Shown: piece after piece, positions 10,435-57,454 of the stretch | Layout of the letters: every line of letters starts with the position of its first letter | Numbering within the stretch: position 1 is the first letter of the stretch | Assembly: GCA_004193555.1 (NCBI GenBank) | Contig: RPGP01000040.1 | Location: 315,127-379,126, forward strand | Direction of reading: 5' to 3' | From: Desulfobacteraceae bacterium Eth-SRB1 | Lineage (GTDB): Bacteria > Desulfobacterota > Desulfobacteria > Desulfobacterales > ETH-SRB1 | DNA: 64,000 nucleotides | Program-made: the position numbers and the translations under genes | Notes under the pieces: generated by a model | What the model saw: only the letters and a program-made list of their open reading frames with translations | What the model was told of the DNA's origin: nothing | The model's database searches: none

Positions 10435-10642
10435 AAGTGAGCTAAAGTACCTAAAGTTGTGGTACGCCTTAGGCGTGCTAATTGATAACCCAAGGTCGTT
10501 GGCCTCTGCAAACTCCTTAAACATGGTAAACAAGTCAGCCTGTCGCATAGCACCAGATCGGACTTTAAGCGCTTCAGTTAAAATTGGCAGCGCTGAAAGC
10601 GCATTCCTTAACTTTAGGCGCTTTAGCTCACTTTAGGCACTT
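10435..10642. repeat. MITE-like inverted-end repeat, family A, copy 1
   Basis: This copy starts with AAGTGAGCTAAAGTACC and ends with CTTTAGCTCACTTTAGGCAC, which are complementary ends. The inner motifs GTGGTACGCCTTAGGCGTG and GGCAGCGCTGAAAGCGC match the other copies, but the centre is diverged. The right end overlaps the 3' end of the acyltransferase gene. Confidence 0.75.
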
Positions 10643-11321
10643 CAAGTATATTATGGCCAAAATATCTGTCAGCATCAAGTGTGATGCTGCAAAGCTCCTT
10701 TTCAAGGCGGAGCAGGCATCTTTTTCCTTCGTCAGTATCGGCATCCTTCGGCACATACACAGGGCTGCCACACACTGCCCTGCATTTTGTAAATGGATAG
10801 GGAAGAATAAAACGGTCCCAGCTTGCAAAAACCTTGATTTTTCTTGCGCTAAAACTTATCGGCAAAATGGGGTATCCTGTCTTTTTTGCCAGAATAATTA
10901 TTCCAGGATGGGCCTTGTATCTTGGCCCCTGGGGGCCATCCGGAACAATCAAACAAAGTTTCTTTTTCTCATTAACATATTTTATCAGCTTTGCCAGGGC
11001 TTGCAGACCTCCATTTTTTGTGGATCCCCTTATAGCTTTATGACCTTGCCGCTGAATTATCCTTGCAGCAATTTCGCCGTCTGCAGATTTGCTGACCATA
11101 GCAGCTCCATCCAGCCCCTTGCTCAGATAATCGACAAGGAGTATCCTTGAATGCCATACCGCAAGTATGCATTTTCTTGATAAAATAATCGGTTTTACTT
11201 TTTCAAAGCCTTCCTGTTCTATCTTCATCGTGCTGAAAAGCAGATCGATTAACAGCTTGCCGAAGATACCGACAAGATTCCACTTGATTTCGGAAATTCT
11301 GTTTTTTTTCTTCAAGTGCAT
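10623..11321 (-). CDS. DUF374 lysophospholipid-acyltransferase-like protein of the lipid A cluster
   Basis: A 232-residue protein of the DUF374 acyltransferase-like family. A membrane-proximal N-terminus (WNLVGIFGKLLIDLLF, ~14-29) precedes an AVWHSRILL segment, where the His could be part of the catalytic site, then VSKSADGEIAARIIQ, IRGSTKNGG and VPDGPQGPRYKAHPG. Family members are thought to act on lipid A or related lipids, but the exact substrate is not established. It lies between lpxB and msbA, where other bacteria often carry acyltransferase or Kdo-transferase genes. The last codons (VPKVS and stop) come from the inverted end of a family A repeat, so the native C-terminus has probably been replaced. 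Confidence 0.82.
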   Translation of the reverse strand: MHLKKKNRISEIKWNLVGIFGKLLIDLLFSTMKIEQEGFEKVKPIILSRKCILAVWHSRILLVDYLSKGLDGAAMVSKSADGEIAARIIQRQGHKAIRGSTKNGGLQALAKLIKYVNEKKKLCLIVPDGPQGPRYKAHPGIIILAKKTGYPILPISFSARKIKVFASWDRFILPYPFTKCRAVCGSPVYVPKDADTDEGKRCLLRLEKELCSITLDADRYFGHNILEVPKVS

Positions 11322-11328
11322 AACAAAA

Positions 11329-11612
11329 AAGTGCCTAAAGTGAGCTAAAGTATATTAAAGTGCCTAAAGTTTAAGGAGTCGCTTCGCTCCATTAATTCAC
11401 ATAGAATTGGCAGCGCCGAAGGCGCTTTCCTTATTCGAAATTCGATGTTGGACGTTCATCTTTTAATATTATGTCACTATTTAAAATCATTGCCCCGCAC
11501 TGTTTTGTAGAGACTACCCCAAAAGCCAGGTGGCCTTGCGTTATTAATCAGCACGCCAAAGGTATACCATAACTTTAGGCACTTTAGTTCACTTTAGGCA
11601 TTTTAGGCGCTT
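11329..11612. repeat. MITE-like inverted-end repeat, family A, copy 2
   Basis: The copy opens with AAGTGCCTAAAGTGAGCTAA and closes with CTTTAGTTCACTTTAGGC, with GGCAGCGCCGAAGGCGC inside. It fills the whole gap between the acyltransferase gene and lpxB. The middle also carries a piece resembling the GATGTTGGACGTTC motif of family C, so it may be a composite. Confidence 0.75.
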
Positions 11613-12787: not shown

Positions 12788-12995
12788 GAACTTAGCGCCC
12801 TTCGGGTGGGCTTAAAAGATGAACGTCGAACATCGAATTTTGAATAAGGTATTCTGCCAATTTATAAACCGGCAGAGCGAAGCGATTTCATCATTCGATG
12901 TTCGACGTTGGACGTTCGACGTTCAAAAAAAATCACCTATATCCTATGATACCGAATTCATTAGGCATAAAATGGAAATTCCTATACTATCAAGT
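12788..12995. repeat. Intergenic repeat, family C, copy 1
   Basis: It begins with GAACTTAGCGCCCTTCGGG and ends with AAAATGGAAATTCCTATACT, both shared almost exactly with 15081-15200. This copy holds an extra internal palindrome (AACGTCGAACATCGAA facing TTCGATGTTCGACGTT), absent from the other copy, so one repeat appears nested within another. Confidence 0.7.
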
Positions 12996-14010: not shown

Positions 14011-14220
14011 GTAGCGCACCTTCGGTGCGGACATAAGTGCCTAAAGTTAAGGAATGCGCCTTTGGCGCTGCCAATTTTAATTTTTTCACCATATAACTTT
14101 GCTTACTTTGTTTCTACTTGCCGCGATGGACACGAGCACGCGGGTCTGAACTTATAACCAAGCCCTGAAAATCTATAGCTCACCGAAAGCGTACCACAAC
14201 TTTAGGCATTTTAGGCACTT
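14011..14220. repeat. MITE-like inverted-end repeat, family A, copy 3
   Basis: The copy fills the gap between the oxidoreductase gene and lpxI. It carries GCGCACCTTCGGTGCGG, AAGTGCCTAAAGTT, GCGCCTTTGGCGCTGCC, then CGTACCACAACTTTAGGC and TTTAGGCACTT. Its orientation is opposite to copies 4 and 6. Confidence 0.8.
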
Positions 14221-14232
14221 TTTATTGTTTGG

Positions 14233-15080: not shown

Positions 15081-15200
15081 GAACTTAGCGCCCTTCGGGC
15101 GGGCTTAAAAGATGAACGATGTTGGACGTTCAAAAAAATCCGCCTATATCCTATGGTACTGGATTTATTAGGCATAAAATGGAAATTCCTATACTATTCG
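15081..15200. repeat. Intergenic repeat, family C, copy 2
   Basis: A shorter copy of the family at 12788-12995 with the same two ends. It is flanked by tandem GGTCGAGT units (15054-15077) on one side and CACTCGACC/CTACTCGAC units (15215-15244) on the other. Together these form an inverted border between lpxI and lpxA. Confidence 0.7.
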
Positions 15201-17516: not shown

Positions 17517-17722
17517 TGTAACCGTTCACAGTTAACGGTTGATTGAAAGATAAAGGCGAAAGGCCTTGATGTTAAACTGAGAACTCAAGTTTATATTGCA
17601 TGTGAAGTTAAAATATTTTCTGAAAAATTCAAATATTGGTATTTCTGATTAAAATGCTTTAGGCGCTGCATAATTCAATAAAAAAACCGTGAACCCTAAA
17701 CTGACAACTGTAAACGGTTACA
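17517..17722. repeat. Intergenic repeat, family B, copy 1
   Basis: It contains GGTTGATTGAAAGATAAAGG, GGCGAAAGGCCTT, TGAGAACTCAAGTTTATATT and GCTTTAGGCGCTGCATAATT, all shared with 42061-42352 some 24 kb away. The ends are built of ACCGTTCACAGTTAACGGTT-like inverted units. It fills the gap between lpxD and ompH. Confidence 0.8.
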
Positions 17723-17769
17723 TTATATGCTCCTCAAGGCCGATTTGATATGCGCCTGAATTGTCTTTT

Positions 17770-24633: not shown

Positions 24634-24963
24634 ATCATGAAATATCCGTAATCCTCTGATCCTTACACAATGTAGAATTAAACTAAAATTATTAACTTAT
24701 TTACCTATAAGTGTCAAATAGATTGTTCGGAAGCGAGATACGCAAAAGCCATAACTAATTTTAAAACGGCTAAAGTATTACATAGCCGTTCACGGCTTGA
24801 AACTTGAAATTAGAAATTTGGGTAACCTGTCTGCGTGCCGGCACGCACAGGCAGGGATGAAACAAGTCAAACGATACAGAATACAAAGCAATAGTTGAAA
24901 AACCCGGCCCAAAATTGAATGCGTTCATCAACTACAAAAGCATGAAGGCCAAATTTCCAATTT
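24634..24963. other. Gap between apbE and lysS
   Basis: About 330 nt with no gene. It includes ACGGCTAAAGTATTACATAG followed by GCCGTTCACGGCTTG, and the palindrome at 24826-24855. The rest is AT-rich; the lysS promoter should be at the low-coordinate side of lysS's 5' end near 24640-24720, but no clear minus-strand core element stands out. Confidence 0.5.
24826..24855. repeat. Palindromic repeat sharing arms with the one inside hsdM
   Basis: Near-perfect inverted repeat: CCTGTCTGCGTGC facing GCACGCACAGGCAGG. The same arms recur at 4616-4648 and 48946-48972. Confidence 0.75.
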
Positions 24964-26007
24964 CTATTTTCCAATTTCAACCTTCCGTGAACGCTTACTA
25001 AATCCTTTTGAAAAATAATCGATGAAAGCGCCATTTTTACCCTTAACAACTATAAGGCCTTCAACACTGTTGAGACTGTTAATCAGTTCAAGCCCTTTCA
25101 TGGCGCCCATAACCATAACCGCAGTTGCAAGCCCATCAGCAAACATACATGTATCCGCGACAATTGAAACACTTATAACGCCGTTTGAAACAGGATGTCC
25201 GGTCGCTGGGTTTAAAATATGGGAATATCTCTTTCCATCAATTTCAAAAAAATTTCTATAATCACCGCTCGTCGCAAGCGCCCTGTCATGTAACTTTACC
25301 ACCTTATATACATGATCAAAAGAAGAGTCTTTTTGAGGCCTGTTGATACCGACTTTCCAGTTTTTGCCGTCATTTCTGAAGCCTGCCGCATAAACCTCGC
25401 CACCGATCTCAACAAGAAAACTATTTATTCCATCTTTTTTAATAAGATCTGCGATCTGATCAACAGCATACCCTTTTGCAATAGAAGCAAGGTCAACAGA
25501 TATGCGGGTTTTTCTTTTTACAAGATATCTGTTTTCAGATATTTCAATATGACAAAAACCTATATCAGGTAAAAGCCTGTCTATTTCTTCCTTTTTGGGG
25601 ATAACCCTTTTTTGCCGCCTTCTATTAAAACCCCACATCTTTTCAAGCGGCATTACAGTACCATCCCACGCCCCGTCTGTTAGTTTATACAGACTTTCCG
25701 CAACCGTCATAACATGAAAAAAATCATCTGAAGCATAAAATTTATCTCCGACATTGCTCAAACCATTAAACCTGCTGATTTCACTGTCTTTTATAAATGT
25801 CGACATGCTCTGATTTATCTCGTCAAGCCGTTTATTGATCTTATCTTCGAGCATTGCCAAATTTTGTACATGACCGGCAACAACCTTTATATTATAGGTT
25901 GTGCCCATTGTTTTTCCTGAAATCAGCATCTCTTTGGCCGGCGCTGATCCGGCTATGCATAAAATACATACAATCAAACTACTTGATTTTATTATTTTTC
26001 GTAACAT
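24964..26007 (-). CDS. apbE: FAD:protein FMN transferase ApbE
   Basis: A 347-residue exported ApbE. An N-terminal signal peptide (MLRKIIKSSSLIVCILCIAG) is followed by SGKTMGTTYNIKVV (~30-43), DLASIAKGYAVDQIADL (~173-189), the flavin-binding LVEIGGEVYAAG and the metal-site region TCMFADGLATAVMVMG (~280-295). It attaches FMN to threonines of Rnf/Nqr-type or other flavoproteins in the periplasm. The ATG lies 1 nt after the hypE stop, so it is the second gene of a two-gene unit. No target protein gene is adjacent. Confidence 0.93.
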   Translation of the reverse strand: MLRKIIKSSSLIVCILCIAGSAPAKEMLISGKTMGTTYNIKVVAGHVQNLAMLEDKINKRLDEINQSMSTFIKDSEISRFNGLSNVGDKFYASDDFFHVMTVAESLYKLTDGAWDGTVMPLEKMWGFNRRRQKRVIPKKEEIDRLLPDIGFCHIEISENRYLVKRKTRISVDLASIAKGYAVDQIADLIKKDGINSFLVEIGGEVYAAGFRNDGKNWKVGINRPQKDSSFDHVYKVVKLHDRALATSGDYRNFFEIDGKRYSHILNPATGHPVSNGVISVSIVADTCMFADGLATAVMVMGAMKGLELINSLNSVEGLIVVKGKNGAFIDYFSKGFSKRSRKVEIGK

Positions 26008-33230: not shown

Positions 33231-33493
33231 AAGTTAGCGTACCTTCGGTGCGGGCATAAGTGCCTAAAGTGAGCTAAAGTGCCTAAAATGCCTAAAGTTG
33301 TGGTACGCCTTTGGCGTGTTATAGATATTCAGGGTTTGGTTATAGCTTCAGACCAGCCGTGCTCGCGCCCGTCGTGGCAGGTAGAAACAAAGTGAGCAAA
33401 GTTGCATGGTAAAAAAAAATAAAATTGGCAGCGCCGAAGGCGCATTCATTAACTTTAGACACTTTAATATACTTTAGCTCACTTTAGGCACTT
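33231..33493. repeat. MITE-like inverted-end repeat, family A, copy 4 (best copy)
   Basis: The left end AAGTGCCTAAAGTGAGCTAA (33259 onward) has its exact complement TTAGCTCACTTTAGGCACTT at 33474-33493. Inside are GTGGTACGCCTTTGGCGTG, GGTTATAGCTTCAGACC, AAAGTGAGCAAAGTTGCATG and GGCAGCGCCGAAGGCGC, each able to form a small hairpin or shared with copies 3 and 6. An outer TACCTTCGGTGCGG block precedes it. It fills the 370-nt gap between the MBL gene and the small Cys-rich gene. Confidence 0.85.
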
Positions 33494-35262: not shown

Positions 35263-35304
35263 AACATAACTCCTTTGCTTCTAATTTATTGTGTTTGGCT
35301 TTAA

Positions 35305-35461
35305 GGGCTCGCTCAAAAATAACTTAACATTTTAAGCGCCGATGCATCCCGCCTTGCTGCGTTGCGAAAGTTCGGAATATGCCTGATATTCCTGCGCTTT
35401 CGCGCCTTGCCAGCCGGGCGCCTCAACACTTAAAATTGCCAATTTATTTTTGAACGAACCC
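35305..35461. repeat. Inverted-end repeat, family E
   Basis: About 157 bp with near-identical inverted ends: GGGCTCGCTCAAAAATAA (35305-35322) and TTATTTTTGAACGAACCC (35444-35461). The interior is GC-rich with GCATCCCGCCTTGCTGCG and CGCGCCTTGCCAGCCGGGCG. The right end encodes the last codons of nusB. There is one copy in this window. Confidence 0.75.
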
Positions 35462-35887
35462 TAACTCAATATTTATTTCTTCTTTTTCCAGTGCGATATG
35501 AATGCTGTCAAGTATTCCATTAATAAATGCGCCGGATTCTTCGGTGCCAAATTTTTTCCCTATATCAATAGCTTCATTCATCGATACTTTTGATGGGATA
35601 TCGCTGCAAAAAAGAAGTTCATAAACAGCAATTCTCATAATATTTCTGTCCACGCAGGACATGCGGCTCATCTTCCAGTTACTGGAAAAGCGTTCAATGA
35701 TCGGGTCAATATCCTGCCTTGTATGTATTACACCATTGACCAGCTTAAGAAAAAAAAGAGACGCTTCTTTTGAAAATATAAAATTATCACAAAACAGCTT
35801 TATTGTCTCTTCTGAATCACTCTTGCTCATATCCATATAAAAAAGAGCCTGCATGGCAAGTTCCCGCGACTTGCGCCGGTTTACCAT
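35444..35887 (-). CDS. nusB: Transcription antitermination factor NusB
   Basis: A 147-residue all-helical NusB: MVNRRKSRELAMQALFYMDM, RIAVYELLFCSDIPSKVSMNEAI and the GTEESGAFINGILDSI helix. It works with NusE (S10) in rRNA antitermination. ATG at 35887 lies 2 nt past the ribH stop, so the two are coupled. The last five residues (GFVQK) and stop are encoded by the inverted end of a family E repeat, so the tail has been replaced or extended. Confidence 0.94.
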   Translation of the reverse strand: MVNRRKSRELAMQALFYMDMSKSDSEETIKLFCDNFIFSKEASLFFLKLVNGVIHTRQDIDPIIERFSSNWKMSRMSCVDRNIMRIAVYELLFCSDIPSKVSMNEAIDIGKKFGTEESGAFINGILDSIHIALEKEEINIELGFVQK

Positions 35888-36436: not shown

Positions 36437-36512
36437 AAATTAAAATCGGCAGCGCCGAAGGCGCTTTCCTCAATTTTAGGCATTTTAGGCACTTTAGCTC
36501 ACTTTAGGCACT
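36437..36512. repeat. Family A repeat, partial copy 5
   Basis: It carries only the GGCAGCGCCGAAGGCGC stem and the right inverted end TTTAGCTCACTTTAGGCACT, between ribH and ribBA. Confidence 0.7.
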
Positions 36513-36516
36513 CATT

Positions 36517-39625: not shown

Positions 39626-39840
39626 AAAGTGCCTAAAATGCCTAAGGTTGTGGTACGCCTTCGGCGTTCTATAGATCTTCAGTGCTTGATTATAACTTCA
39701 GCCGGAAATAAAGTGAGCAAAGTTGTATGGTAAAAAAATTAAAACTGGCAGCGCCGAAGGCGCATTCCTTAACTTTAGGCACTTTAATATACTTTAGCTC
39801 ACTTTAGGCACTTATCTCCGCACCGAAGGTGCGCTAAGTT
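39626..39840. repeat. MITE-like inverted-end repeat, family A, copy 6
   Basis: Closely parallels copy 4: AAGTGCCTAAAATGCCTAAG, GTGGTACGCCTTCGGCGTT, GATTATAACTTCAGCC, AAAGTGAGCAAAGTTGTATG, GGCAGCGCCGAAGGCGCATT and TTAGCTCACTTTAGGCACTT, then GCACCGAAGGTGCGC. Confidence 0.85.
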
Positions 39841-42038: not shown

Positions 42039-42060
42039 CTATCCCTCTCCTTTGGTAAGA

Positions 42061-42352
42061 ATTTACGGTTCACGGTTTACGGTTTACGGTTGATTGAAAC
42101 ATAAAGGCGAAAGGCCTTAACGCTAAACTGAAAACTCAAGTTTTTATTGCATGTAAAGTTAAAATGTTTTCTGAAAAAATTCAAAAAACTAATTCAAAGG
42201 TTGGTATTTCTGATTAAAATGCTTTAGGCGCTGCATAATTCAATAAAAAACCGTGAACCGTGAACTGATAACCGTGAACCGTGAACTGATAACCGTGAAC
42301 TGATAACCGTGAACCGTGAACTGATAACCGTGAACTGATAACCGTGAACGGC
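42061..42352. repeat. Intergenic repeat, family B, copy 2, with short tandem array
   Basis: The core (GGTTGATTGAAACATAAAGG, GGCGAAAGGCCTT, ACTCAAGTTTTTATTGCATG, GCTTTAGGCGCTGCATAATT) matches 17517-17722. From about 42250 to 42352 the copy expands into units of the form GTGAACCGTGAACTGATAACC, repeated imperfectly about six times; it looks like slippage at the repeat end. No spacers, so not CRISPR. Confidence 0.85.
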
Positions 42353-57289: not shown

Positions 57290-57440
57290 AATCGTCGAAA
57301 AGATGAACGTCGAAAAGATGAACGTCGAACATCGAACATCGAACGTCCAATTTTGAATGTTGTTGTCGCTTTGCTCCTGCAATCTGAAAACAAGCGGAGC
57401 GGAGCGACTCCGTAACTTTAGGCATTTTAGACATTTTATT
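57290..57440. repeat. Composite repeat relic with family A right end
   Basis: AAAGATGAACGTCGAA units (family C type) and AGCGGAGCGGAGCGACTCCG precede TAACTTTAGGCATTTTAGAC (family A right end). It is a degraded assemblage between dapB and the solute-binding protein gene. Confidence 0.6.
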
Positions 57441-57454
57441 TTTGAACCTTGATA

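Follow-up and report, generated by a model that had tools for sequence, protein, structure and literature searches.

Family A, a group of short intergenic repeats noted in a first-pass annotation of a 64,000-nt stretch of DNA (the window, G000:C40:315127-379126), is best explained as derived by gene loss from a small mobile element, roughly 500-600 bp in length, whose gene-bearing form encodes a single PF05635 protein between inverted ends built from CTAAARTG units. We place the probability of this reading at roughly three in four (0.77). It is built on the anatomy of the elements, the agreement between the lineages of genes and ends, the presence of empty insertion sites, and the selection acting on the protein, which were assessed in the window, in the 3.3-Mb genome to which it belongs (the own genome), and in collections of other genomes, most of which were metagenome bins.

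The long form of the gene-less element is represented by the reference copy at 33258..33493 (+ strand); the next nine best long copies in the own genome are 79-93% identical to it. Its 20-nt inverted ends, which the first-pass annotation had described as exact, are indeed so, with AAGTGCCTAAAGTGAGCTAA at 33258-33277 and the complement at 33474-33493. Long copies are arranged in a fixed order: a left end array of CTAAARTG units with a 9/10-nt period (AAGTGCCTAAAGTGAGCTAAAGTGCC...; 33258..33299, +), matching the flanks of the PF05635 genes L235 and L236; an inner hairpin, GGTACGCC..GGCGTG (33302..33318, +), found also in the 5' leader of the gene-bearing L235; an interior without coding capacity (33323..33424, +), holding a 28-nt segment absent from short forms (alignment A1); a second inner hairpin, GCGCCGAAGGCGC (33425..33443, +); and a right end array inverted relative to the left one (33451..33493, +). 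Of 25 long copies that were aligned, most conserve the inner hairpins and the blocks between them, consistent with the earlier description, and a few copies depart from this layout (L070 and L071 have a different right hairpin, and L098:4950 has another interior). An optional outer hairpin module of 27 nt (AGCGTACCTTCGGTGCG...; 33231..33257, +) lies outside the left end in this and some other copies and outside the right end in others, and is not part of the symmetric ends.

Seven copies had been claimed for the window, and six of them, 80-284 nt in length, are real. In addition to the reference copy, these are copy 1 (10435..10650, +), copy 2 (11329..11612, +; a partial GAACATC-type array lies inside it from about 11434), copy 3 (14011..14222, -), a partial copy comprising a hairpin and the right end (36437..36516, +), and copy 6, a short form with the outer hairpin module at its right end (39626..39840, +). 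The minus-strand position of copy 3 agrees with the claim that copies 3 and 4 (the latter being the reference copy) are opposite in orientation. The supposed seventh copy, at 57400, proved to be a 25-29-nt fragment (57414..57442, +) beside the array of another family. The element was also correctly said to lack coding capacity: the longest stop-free frame in the six copies is 66 codons (range 26-66), a profile of the parent protein matched none of the six, and the interior resembles no part of that protein. Being short, non-coding, bounded by terminal inverted repeats, and present in multiple copies, family A has the features by which miniature inverted-repeat elements (MITEs) are recognized.

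When the own genome was searched, at least 141 matching pieces were found at E<=0.01 (pieces rather than family-A loci), a genome-wide recurrence well above what chance would give; 40 of 107 candidates were scored. Family A was present in 24 of the 38 genomes searched, the own genome included, and across the genome collection its exact 30-nt end, AAGTGCCTAAAGTGAGCTAAAGTGCCTAAA, was found in at least 114 stretches. By record title, carriers of this 30-mer were mostly Desulfobacterota (Deltaproteobacteria, Desulfobacterales, and similar); other titles were Planctomycetota, Calditrichota, Bacteroidota, Nitrospirota, Chlorobiota, Poribacteria, 'Pseudomonadota', and one ANME-2 archaeon. As a test of misbinning, a 24-nt core was searched with up to 2 mismatches in 15 genomes not titled Desulfobacterota; all 15 matched, 1-64 times each, and the reversed pattern matched none. 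Given that these 15 genomes had been preselected for holding the 30-mer, the result shows copy number and not frequency. The single match in the ANME-2 archaeon may be contamination. The family-A hairpin pattern gave 12 matches in viral contigs. Moreover, at least one family-A insertion is common to two genera (L005 and L113), and not all copies can therefore be recent.

A search of the own genome for PF05635 (23S_rRNA_IVP; TIGR02436, 'four helix bundle protein') gave 16 matches, and two of these genes, L235 (C1:216927) and L236 (C1:1204856), are enclosed by the inverted ends of family A; the other 14 matches lack such ends. The flanks of L235 and L236 include short segments that are 84-100% identical to family-A copies in the window, and the 5' leader of L235 has the hairpin GGTACGCCTTCGGCGTGCTA in common with the gene-less copies. 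Four proteins were scanned, L235, L236, and two encoded in genomes titled as other phyla, and each passed the Pfam and NCBIfam cut-offs for PF05635 and TIGR02436. The first-pass annotation had proposed a miniature element with a transposase-encoding parent elsewhere in the genome. The empty sites described below and the gene-bearing forms with the same ends uphold the first half of that proposal, but the forms found encode PF05635 and no transposase.

The association of CTAAARTG ends with one protein lineage is close. For each of the six proteins with 67% or greater identity to L236 (a count that includes L236), the flanks contain three or more CTAAARTG units, as is the case for none of the 93 remaining PF05635 genes; three of the 93 have a single unit. 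One of the six, L138, came from a locus chosen by the 30-mer. Among the 114 loci chosen in this way, a PF05635-like frame was found in only five; two of these frames adjoin the 30-mer (at 51 and 23 nt) and by eye belong to the L236 lineage, and the other three lie 2-4 kb off and do not. PF05635 genes are under purifying selection (median dN/dS 0.091, range 0.035-0.386, over 36 non-independent pairs), as expected if the proteins act.

A parent of a different kind would be a RAYT or IS200 (Y1) transposase moving family A through its small hairpins, in the manner of REP/BIME palindromes. In the own genome, Y1_Tnp matched 14 times, and one match, L037, lies roughly 1.4 kb away from a copy of family A; family-A hairpins lie near both ends of the element; and no target duplication was seen, single-strand transposition being expected to leave none. 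However, when the hairpin lists of the 14 Y1_Tnp loci were inspected by eye, at none of them did a family-A hairpin flank the gene, and many other PF05635 lineages have arrays without such hairpins (by eye). A RAYT/IS200 parent was accordingly rejected as a candidate, and movement by a Y1 transposase is considered quite unlikely. Two of the loci inspected deserve mention in their own right. L042 (G000:C40:680032) encodes a Y1 transposase with its own small flanking palindromes (GCCGACATGGTCGGC) and is likely an ordinary RAYT with REPs; at L035 (G000:C29:316769), a shortened IS200-like transposase gene stands beside a repeat array with 61-nt spacing, CRISPR-like in look.

Inverted end arrays are common around PF05635 genes in general. 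To measure this, the 250 nt upstream of each gene was aligned with the reverse complement of the 250 nt downstream, and a local score of at least 32 was taken as an inverted array. From 105 loci, 94 PF05635 genes of the order were retained after exclusion of those with fewer than 80 aligned residues, one duplicate, and those with incomplete flanks. Inverted flanking arrays were found in 61 of the 94, the remaining 33 scoring below the threshold. Among controls, none of the 940 shuffles reached the threshold; it was attained by 48 of the 1880 mismatched partners, by 2 of the 41 window genes with a length of 200 aa or more, and by 4 of 141 further genes of 100 aa or more, two of these four being in Y1-transposase loci. 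Among 95 PF05635 flanks on each side, 22 upstream and 29 downstream showed a local periodicity (0.8 or higher across 28 nt; periods mainly of 7 or 8 nt), compared with 0 of 285 shuffles on each side and 3 of 82 control flanks. The notion that the arrays carry stop codons in all frames was tried and is not claimed, the 122 arms lying only weakly above shuffles (30% vs 17%).

The end sequences differ between PF05635 lineages (as defined by pairwise similarity) and track the protein. Across 95 genes, the similarity between the left end of one gene and the right end of another was correlated with protein similarity (Mantel r 0.431; 0 of 2000 permutations), and the share of pairs with matching ends rose from 0.8% at protein similarity below 0.15 to 94.4% of the 18 pairs above 0.9. 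This agreement of gene and end lineages shows joint travel, and not by itself binding of the ends by the protein. When a profile of the six L236-like proteins (A2) was searched against the 15 genomes titled as other phyla, 24 matches were obtained at E<=1e-20, in 12 of the 15. Among the ten strong matches (135-219 bits), eight had at least two CTAAARTG units and five at least four; two strong matches, L409 and L417, each have an in-frame stop, and L417 lies at a contig end. The two strong matches without units by pattern are Bacteroidia-titled and by eye have AAGTACT-type arrays downstream; for one of them, just 16 nt of upstream flank was available. By contrast, no CTAAARTG unit was found in any of the 14 weaker matches (<99 bits), many of which by eye have inverted arrays of their own. 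Between L236 and five Planctomycetota/Nitrospirota genes, synonymous sites are near or at saturation (pS 0.76-0.87), yet the non-coding array unit is still shared, a pattern to be expected under joint constraint on array and protein, although the choice of genomes by the 30-mer favours this result.

The same arrangement was found on plasmids. A plasmid tblastn search returned 25 records, all below 60% identity and thus of other PF05635 lineages. Twelve of the 25, picked for variety before their flanks were seen, were subjected to the array test, and 11 scored at least 32 (the exception, L436, scored 24); in two of the 11 (L438 and L439), a mismatched partner outscored the own one. The hosts are Cyanobacteriota, Chloroflexota, Bacteroidota, and Spirochaetota, and several cases have perfect 7-nt repeats, e.g., TAATTCG and GATTAGT. 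Phage records gave 2 PF05635 matches.

Remains of further PF05635 lineages lie in the window itself. The stretch at 24782..25002 (+) is a deletion derivative of one such lineage, and has kept its two end arrays together with a 3' portion of the gene (EYKAIVEKPGPKLNAFIN when translated by eye); the upstream flanks of L331-L334 and L336 match it around 24783-24816, and the downstream flanks of L331-L333 and L336 match within 24946-25002. With both ends and a C-terminal gene part preserved, this piece shows a possible origin of gene-less forms. Another lineage is represented by an element with GTGAACC/TGATAAC arrays at 42060..42350 (+), which has a sister copy at 17521-17733; the upstream flank of the PF05635 gene L287 matches 42256-42321, and the downstream flank of L306 matches 42249-42349. 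In addition, GAACATC-type arrays at 12812..12925 and 57297-57383 (no strand assigned) resemble the ends of the L241/L242 PF05635 lineage. Overall, 40 of 196 PF05635 flank pieces matched the window, compared with 0 of 196 for the reversed window; in a small control, 18 flank pieces of nine other genes gave 0 matches. A larger control of 395 genes from the 30-mer loci (176 of 790 flank pieces matching the window) was discarded as invalid, as those loci hold family A. Two other repeats were observed in the window. A separate 163-bp repeat at 35302-35464 has own-genome copies that are 88-99% identical, with more in relatives, and is probably another miniature element; a short repeat (CCTATACTAT...GGAAATTCC) occurs at 12911-12990 and 15118-15197, and its relatives abut family-A ends in G000 and G009.

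Insertion sites were examined by comparison with relatives. At three tested window sites, family A was absent from the relatives that could be read (six at the first site, where G001 has a short remnant; 12 at the 36437..36516 site; and five at the 39626..39840 site), and some of these orthologous sites carry unrelated inserts; orthology was judged by flank matches across species and genera, and the comparisons are noisy. These absences, together with the occurrence of copies in both orientations, argue against a conserved structured RNA, or a regulatory element, maintained in place by selection, a structured RNA family being the alternative that the first-pass annotation had offered. The conserved hairpins and the insertion common to two genera would suit such an element. 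However, RNAalifold analysis of the family-A alignment A1 revealed changes on both sides at only 2 of 33 pairs, in copies too similar for covariation to be judged, and an Rfam scan of the window returned tRNA only, with no match to the elements. We therefore regard the structured RNA alternative as extremely improbable.

The site of the gene-bearing L236 lies between a kinase-like and a regulator-like gene (by eye) and is empty in six relatives (G002, G005, G007, G010, G013, and G015). G004 has a remnant there; in G003 and G014, the site is occupied by other, nested inserts bordered on one or both sides by family-A end sequence. The inserts in G003 and G014 (L381/L379) consist of a putative endonuclease gene or a piece thereof, which we take to be DUF559-like, with CCCCTCT..AGAGGGG repeats inside the family-A end sequence, and the nest in G003 also has GTGAACC-type arrays; this may represent a second type of gene flanked by ends of this kind.

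Closer empty sites were available in cyanobacterial plasmids, for which lengths were compared from landmark to landmark. The L430 site is 436 nt when filled, compared with 202 nt of other sequence in four of five relatives (in the fifth, a landmark is missing); the L440 site is 512 nt, compared with 35 nt in 4/4 relatives; and the L429 site is 607 nt, compared with 82 nt in 2/2 relatives. By eye, the nucleotides that separate the landmarks at the empty L430 and L440 sites are absent from the filled versions, and target DNA thus appears to have been lost. The L440 element seems to give one neighbour its stop codon and the other its start codon (by eye). As a separate observation, the PF05635 genes of L429 and L439, with their arrays, lie between cas2 and cas1 on Nostoc and Anabaena plasmids, and in two relatives cas2 and cas1 are adjacent.

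Small size, lack of coding capacity, inverted ends, high copy number, and empty sites would all be accounted for if family A were a classical MITE mobilized by a DDE transposase sharing its terminal repeats and if the PF05635 gene were a passenger. Against this stand three observations. No target-site duplication was seen at any of the sites read, on plasmids or in the noisy comparisons of family A between species or genera; target bases appear to be replaced at two plasmid sites; and PF05635 genes are repeatedly found in this arrangement with ends of unrelated sequence, as other genes seldom are. A DDE transposase with a passenger gene is for these reasons considered very unlikely, and we retain the reading of family A as derived from an element with PF05635 as its own gene.

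How such an element might move was approached through its protein. The predicted structure of PF05635 is a four-helix bundle (pLDDT 96.9). Its closest Foldseek matches were the S23-family structures 2rld and 2gsc, the latter a Xanthomonas campestris protein of the PF05635 family, followed by Avd of diversity-generating retroelements (8ub7 and 4dwl chains; probability 1.00, TM 0.74-0.76, though with E-values of 0.07-0.15). The modelled fold is thus Avd-like, and the likeness of PF05635 to Avd is noted in an excerpt of PMC10053308. An Avd-like fold makes a reverse transcriptase an attractive partner, which would copy the RNA of the element while PF05635 acted like Avd. Consistent with such retro-mobility, the own genome has 12 RVT_1 matches, and PF05635 genes were never found between two opposite-running neighbours (0 of 85, compared with 13 of 97 controls; Fisher p 2e-4). 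Gene-bearing copies may need read-through transcription, as we infer. However, in 14 of 33 PF05635-carrying genomes no RVT_1 match was found (among them G026, a single contig that is 99% complete), and the counts of PF05635 and RVT_1 were uncorrelated (Spearman 0.15, p 0.36). These data weigh against a resident reverse transcriptase, and the RVT_1 counts do not support it as a required partner. Moreover, half-elements of either side occur and not one-sided truncation alone; gene-less copies are present in both orientations (15 opposite to both neighbours, 10 co-directional with both, and 8 mixed); and the share of PF05635 genes co-directional with both neighbours (71%) equals that of controls (70% and 68%). 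Taken together, copying by a reverse transcriptase is judged unlikely, though by no means negligible.

No catalytic site or residues are known in PF05635, and another enzyme would therefore be needed; no candidate for cutting or joining was identified. In the mechanism that we propose, the PF05635 protein would bind the end arrays or hairpins of its own element, as DNA or as RNA, and, like its relatives, would probably form a pentamer rich in basic residues (basic by eye); a pentameric state is known for a relative from a passage of a published paper. The protein would then help host or other enzymes to copy the element and join it at gene junctions, joining being accompanied by local replacement of target DNA. 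Gene-less forms may arise through internal deletion and be moved in trans thereafter. For the copying and joining step, we lean slightly toward DNA break repair or strand exchange seeded by short repeats, rather than a resident reverse transcriptase.

Among known systems, family A resembles MITEs and REP/BIME sequences in being small, non-coding, inverted, intergenic, and present in many copies; it differs in that the gene-bearing forms were found without a transposase, that no target duplication was seen, and that the ends are repeat arrays. The predicted fold of PF05635 is shared with Avd of diversity-generating retroelements, but RVT_1 was without a match in 14 of the 33 genomes that carry PF05635. 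'Four helix bundle protein' is an annotation without known function; in excerpts of PMC5524665 and PMC8700078 it is listed only as a phage-region or strain-specific gene. No paper linking PF05635 genes with such repeats was found in a search that left most subscription papers and bioRxiv preprints outside.

Arrays of 7-nt units of the same kind as those at PF05635 ends occur between genes elsewhere, as STRR, the intergenic heptamer repeats of cyanobacteria, and as GGGAATC, GGGGAYT, and TAACTGA repeats. In excerpts of PMC4692102, GGGAATC in Xanthomonas and GGGGAYT in Nostoc are described between genes, convergent inverted pairs make up 70 cases among 186 patterns in one Xanthomonas genome, and heptamer repeats are said generally not to be found with mobile elements; the same excerpts contain no mention of S23, xcc0516, or 23S. 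For the TAACTGA repeats of Beggiatoaceae, a regulatory role is favoured and transposon excision is mentioned as conceivable in excerpts of PMC4679880, which do not mention 23S rRNA, four-helix, intervening sequence, or IVP. According to these two sources, as excerpted, the short tandem heptamer-like intergenic repeats of cyanobacteria, Xanthomonas, giant sulfur bacteria, and others have no accepted origin. We tentatively propose, at somewhat less than even odds, that PF05635 genes are the core of a new class of mobile element that crosses phyla, in which an apparently non-enzymatic, Avd-like protein recognizes the element's own short-repeat ends and brings in host machinery by which target DNA at gene junctions is replaced. 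Heptamer-type repeats dispersed through very many genomes (STRR, GGGAATC, TAACTGA, and others) would then be ends, gene-less derivatives, and footprints of such elements, and the intervening sequences (IVSs) of rRNA would be a special case that landed in rRNA. If true, the repeats and the PF05635 protein would both be explained in a testable manner, the former as element ends and the latter as the element's own gene, and the findings would point to a mobile element without a known transposase.

A close parallel is with the IVSs of 23S rRNA. As described in excerpts of PMC4990558, an rRNA IVS carries an S23p/IVP ORF between inverted, stem-forming ends, is excised by RNase III, and is suspected of mobility, and the Coxiella IVS has heptamer repeats (GACAGAT) upstream of its ORF. 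The PF05635 forms studied here likewise have an S23p/IVP ORF and inverted complementary ends, the gene-less copies being without the ORF. They differ from the rRNA IVSs in their many copies, lineage-specific end arrays, and gene-less derivatives, and in location: an Rfam scan of 15 PF05635 loci gave 0 matches, which places those 15 loci outside rRNA. If the class proposed above is real, the old guess that rRNA intervening sequences are mobile becomes directly testable.
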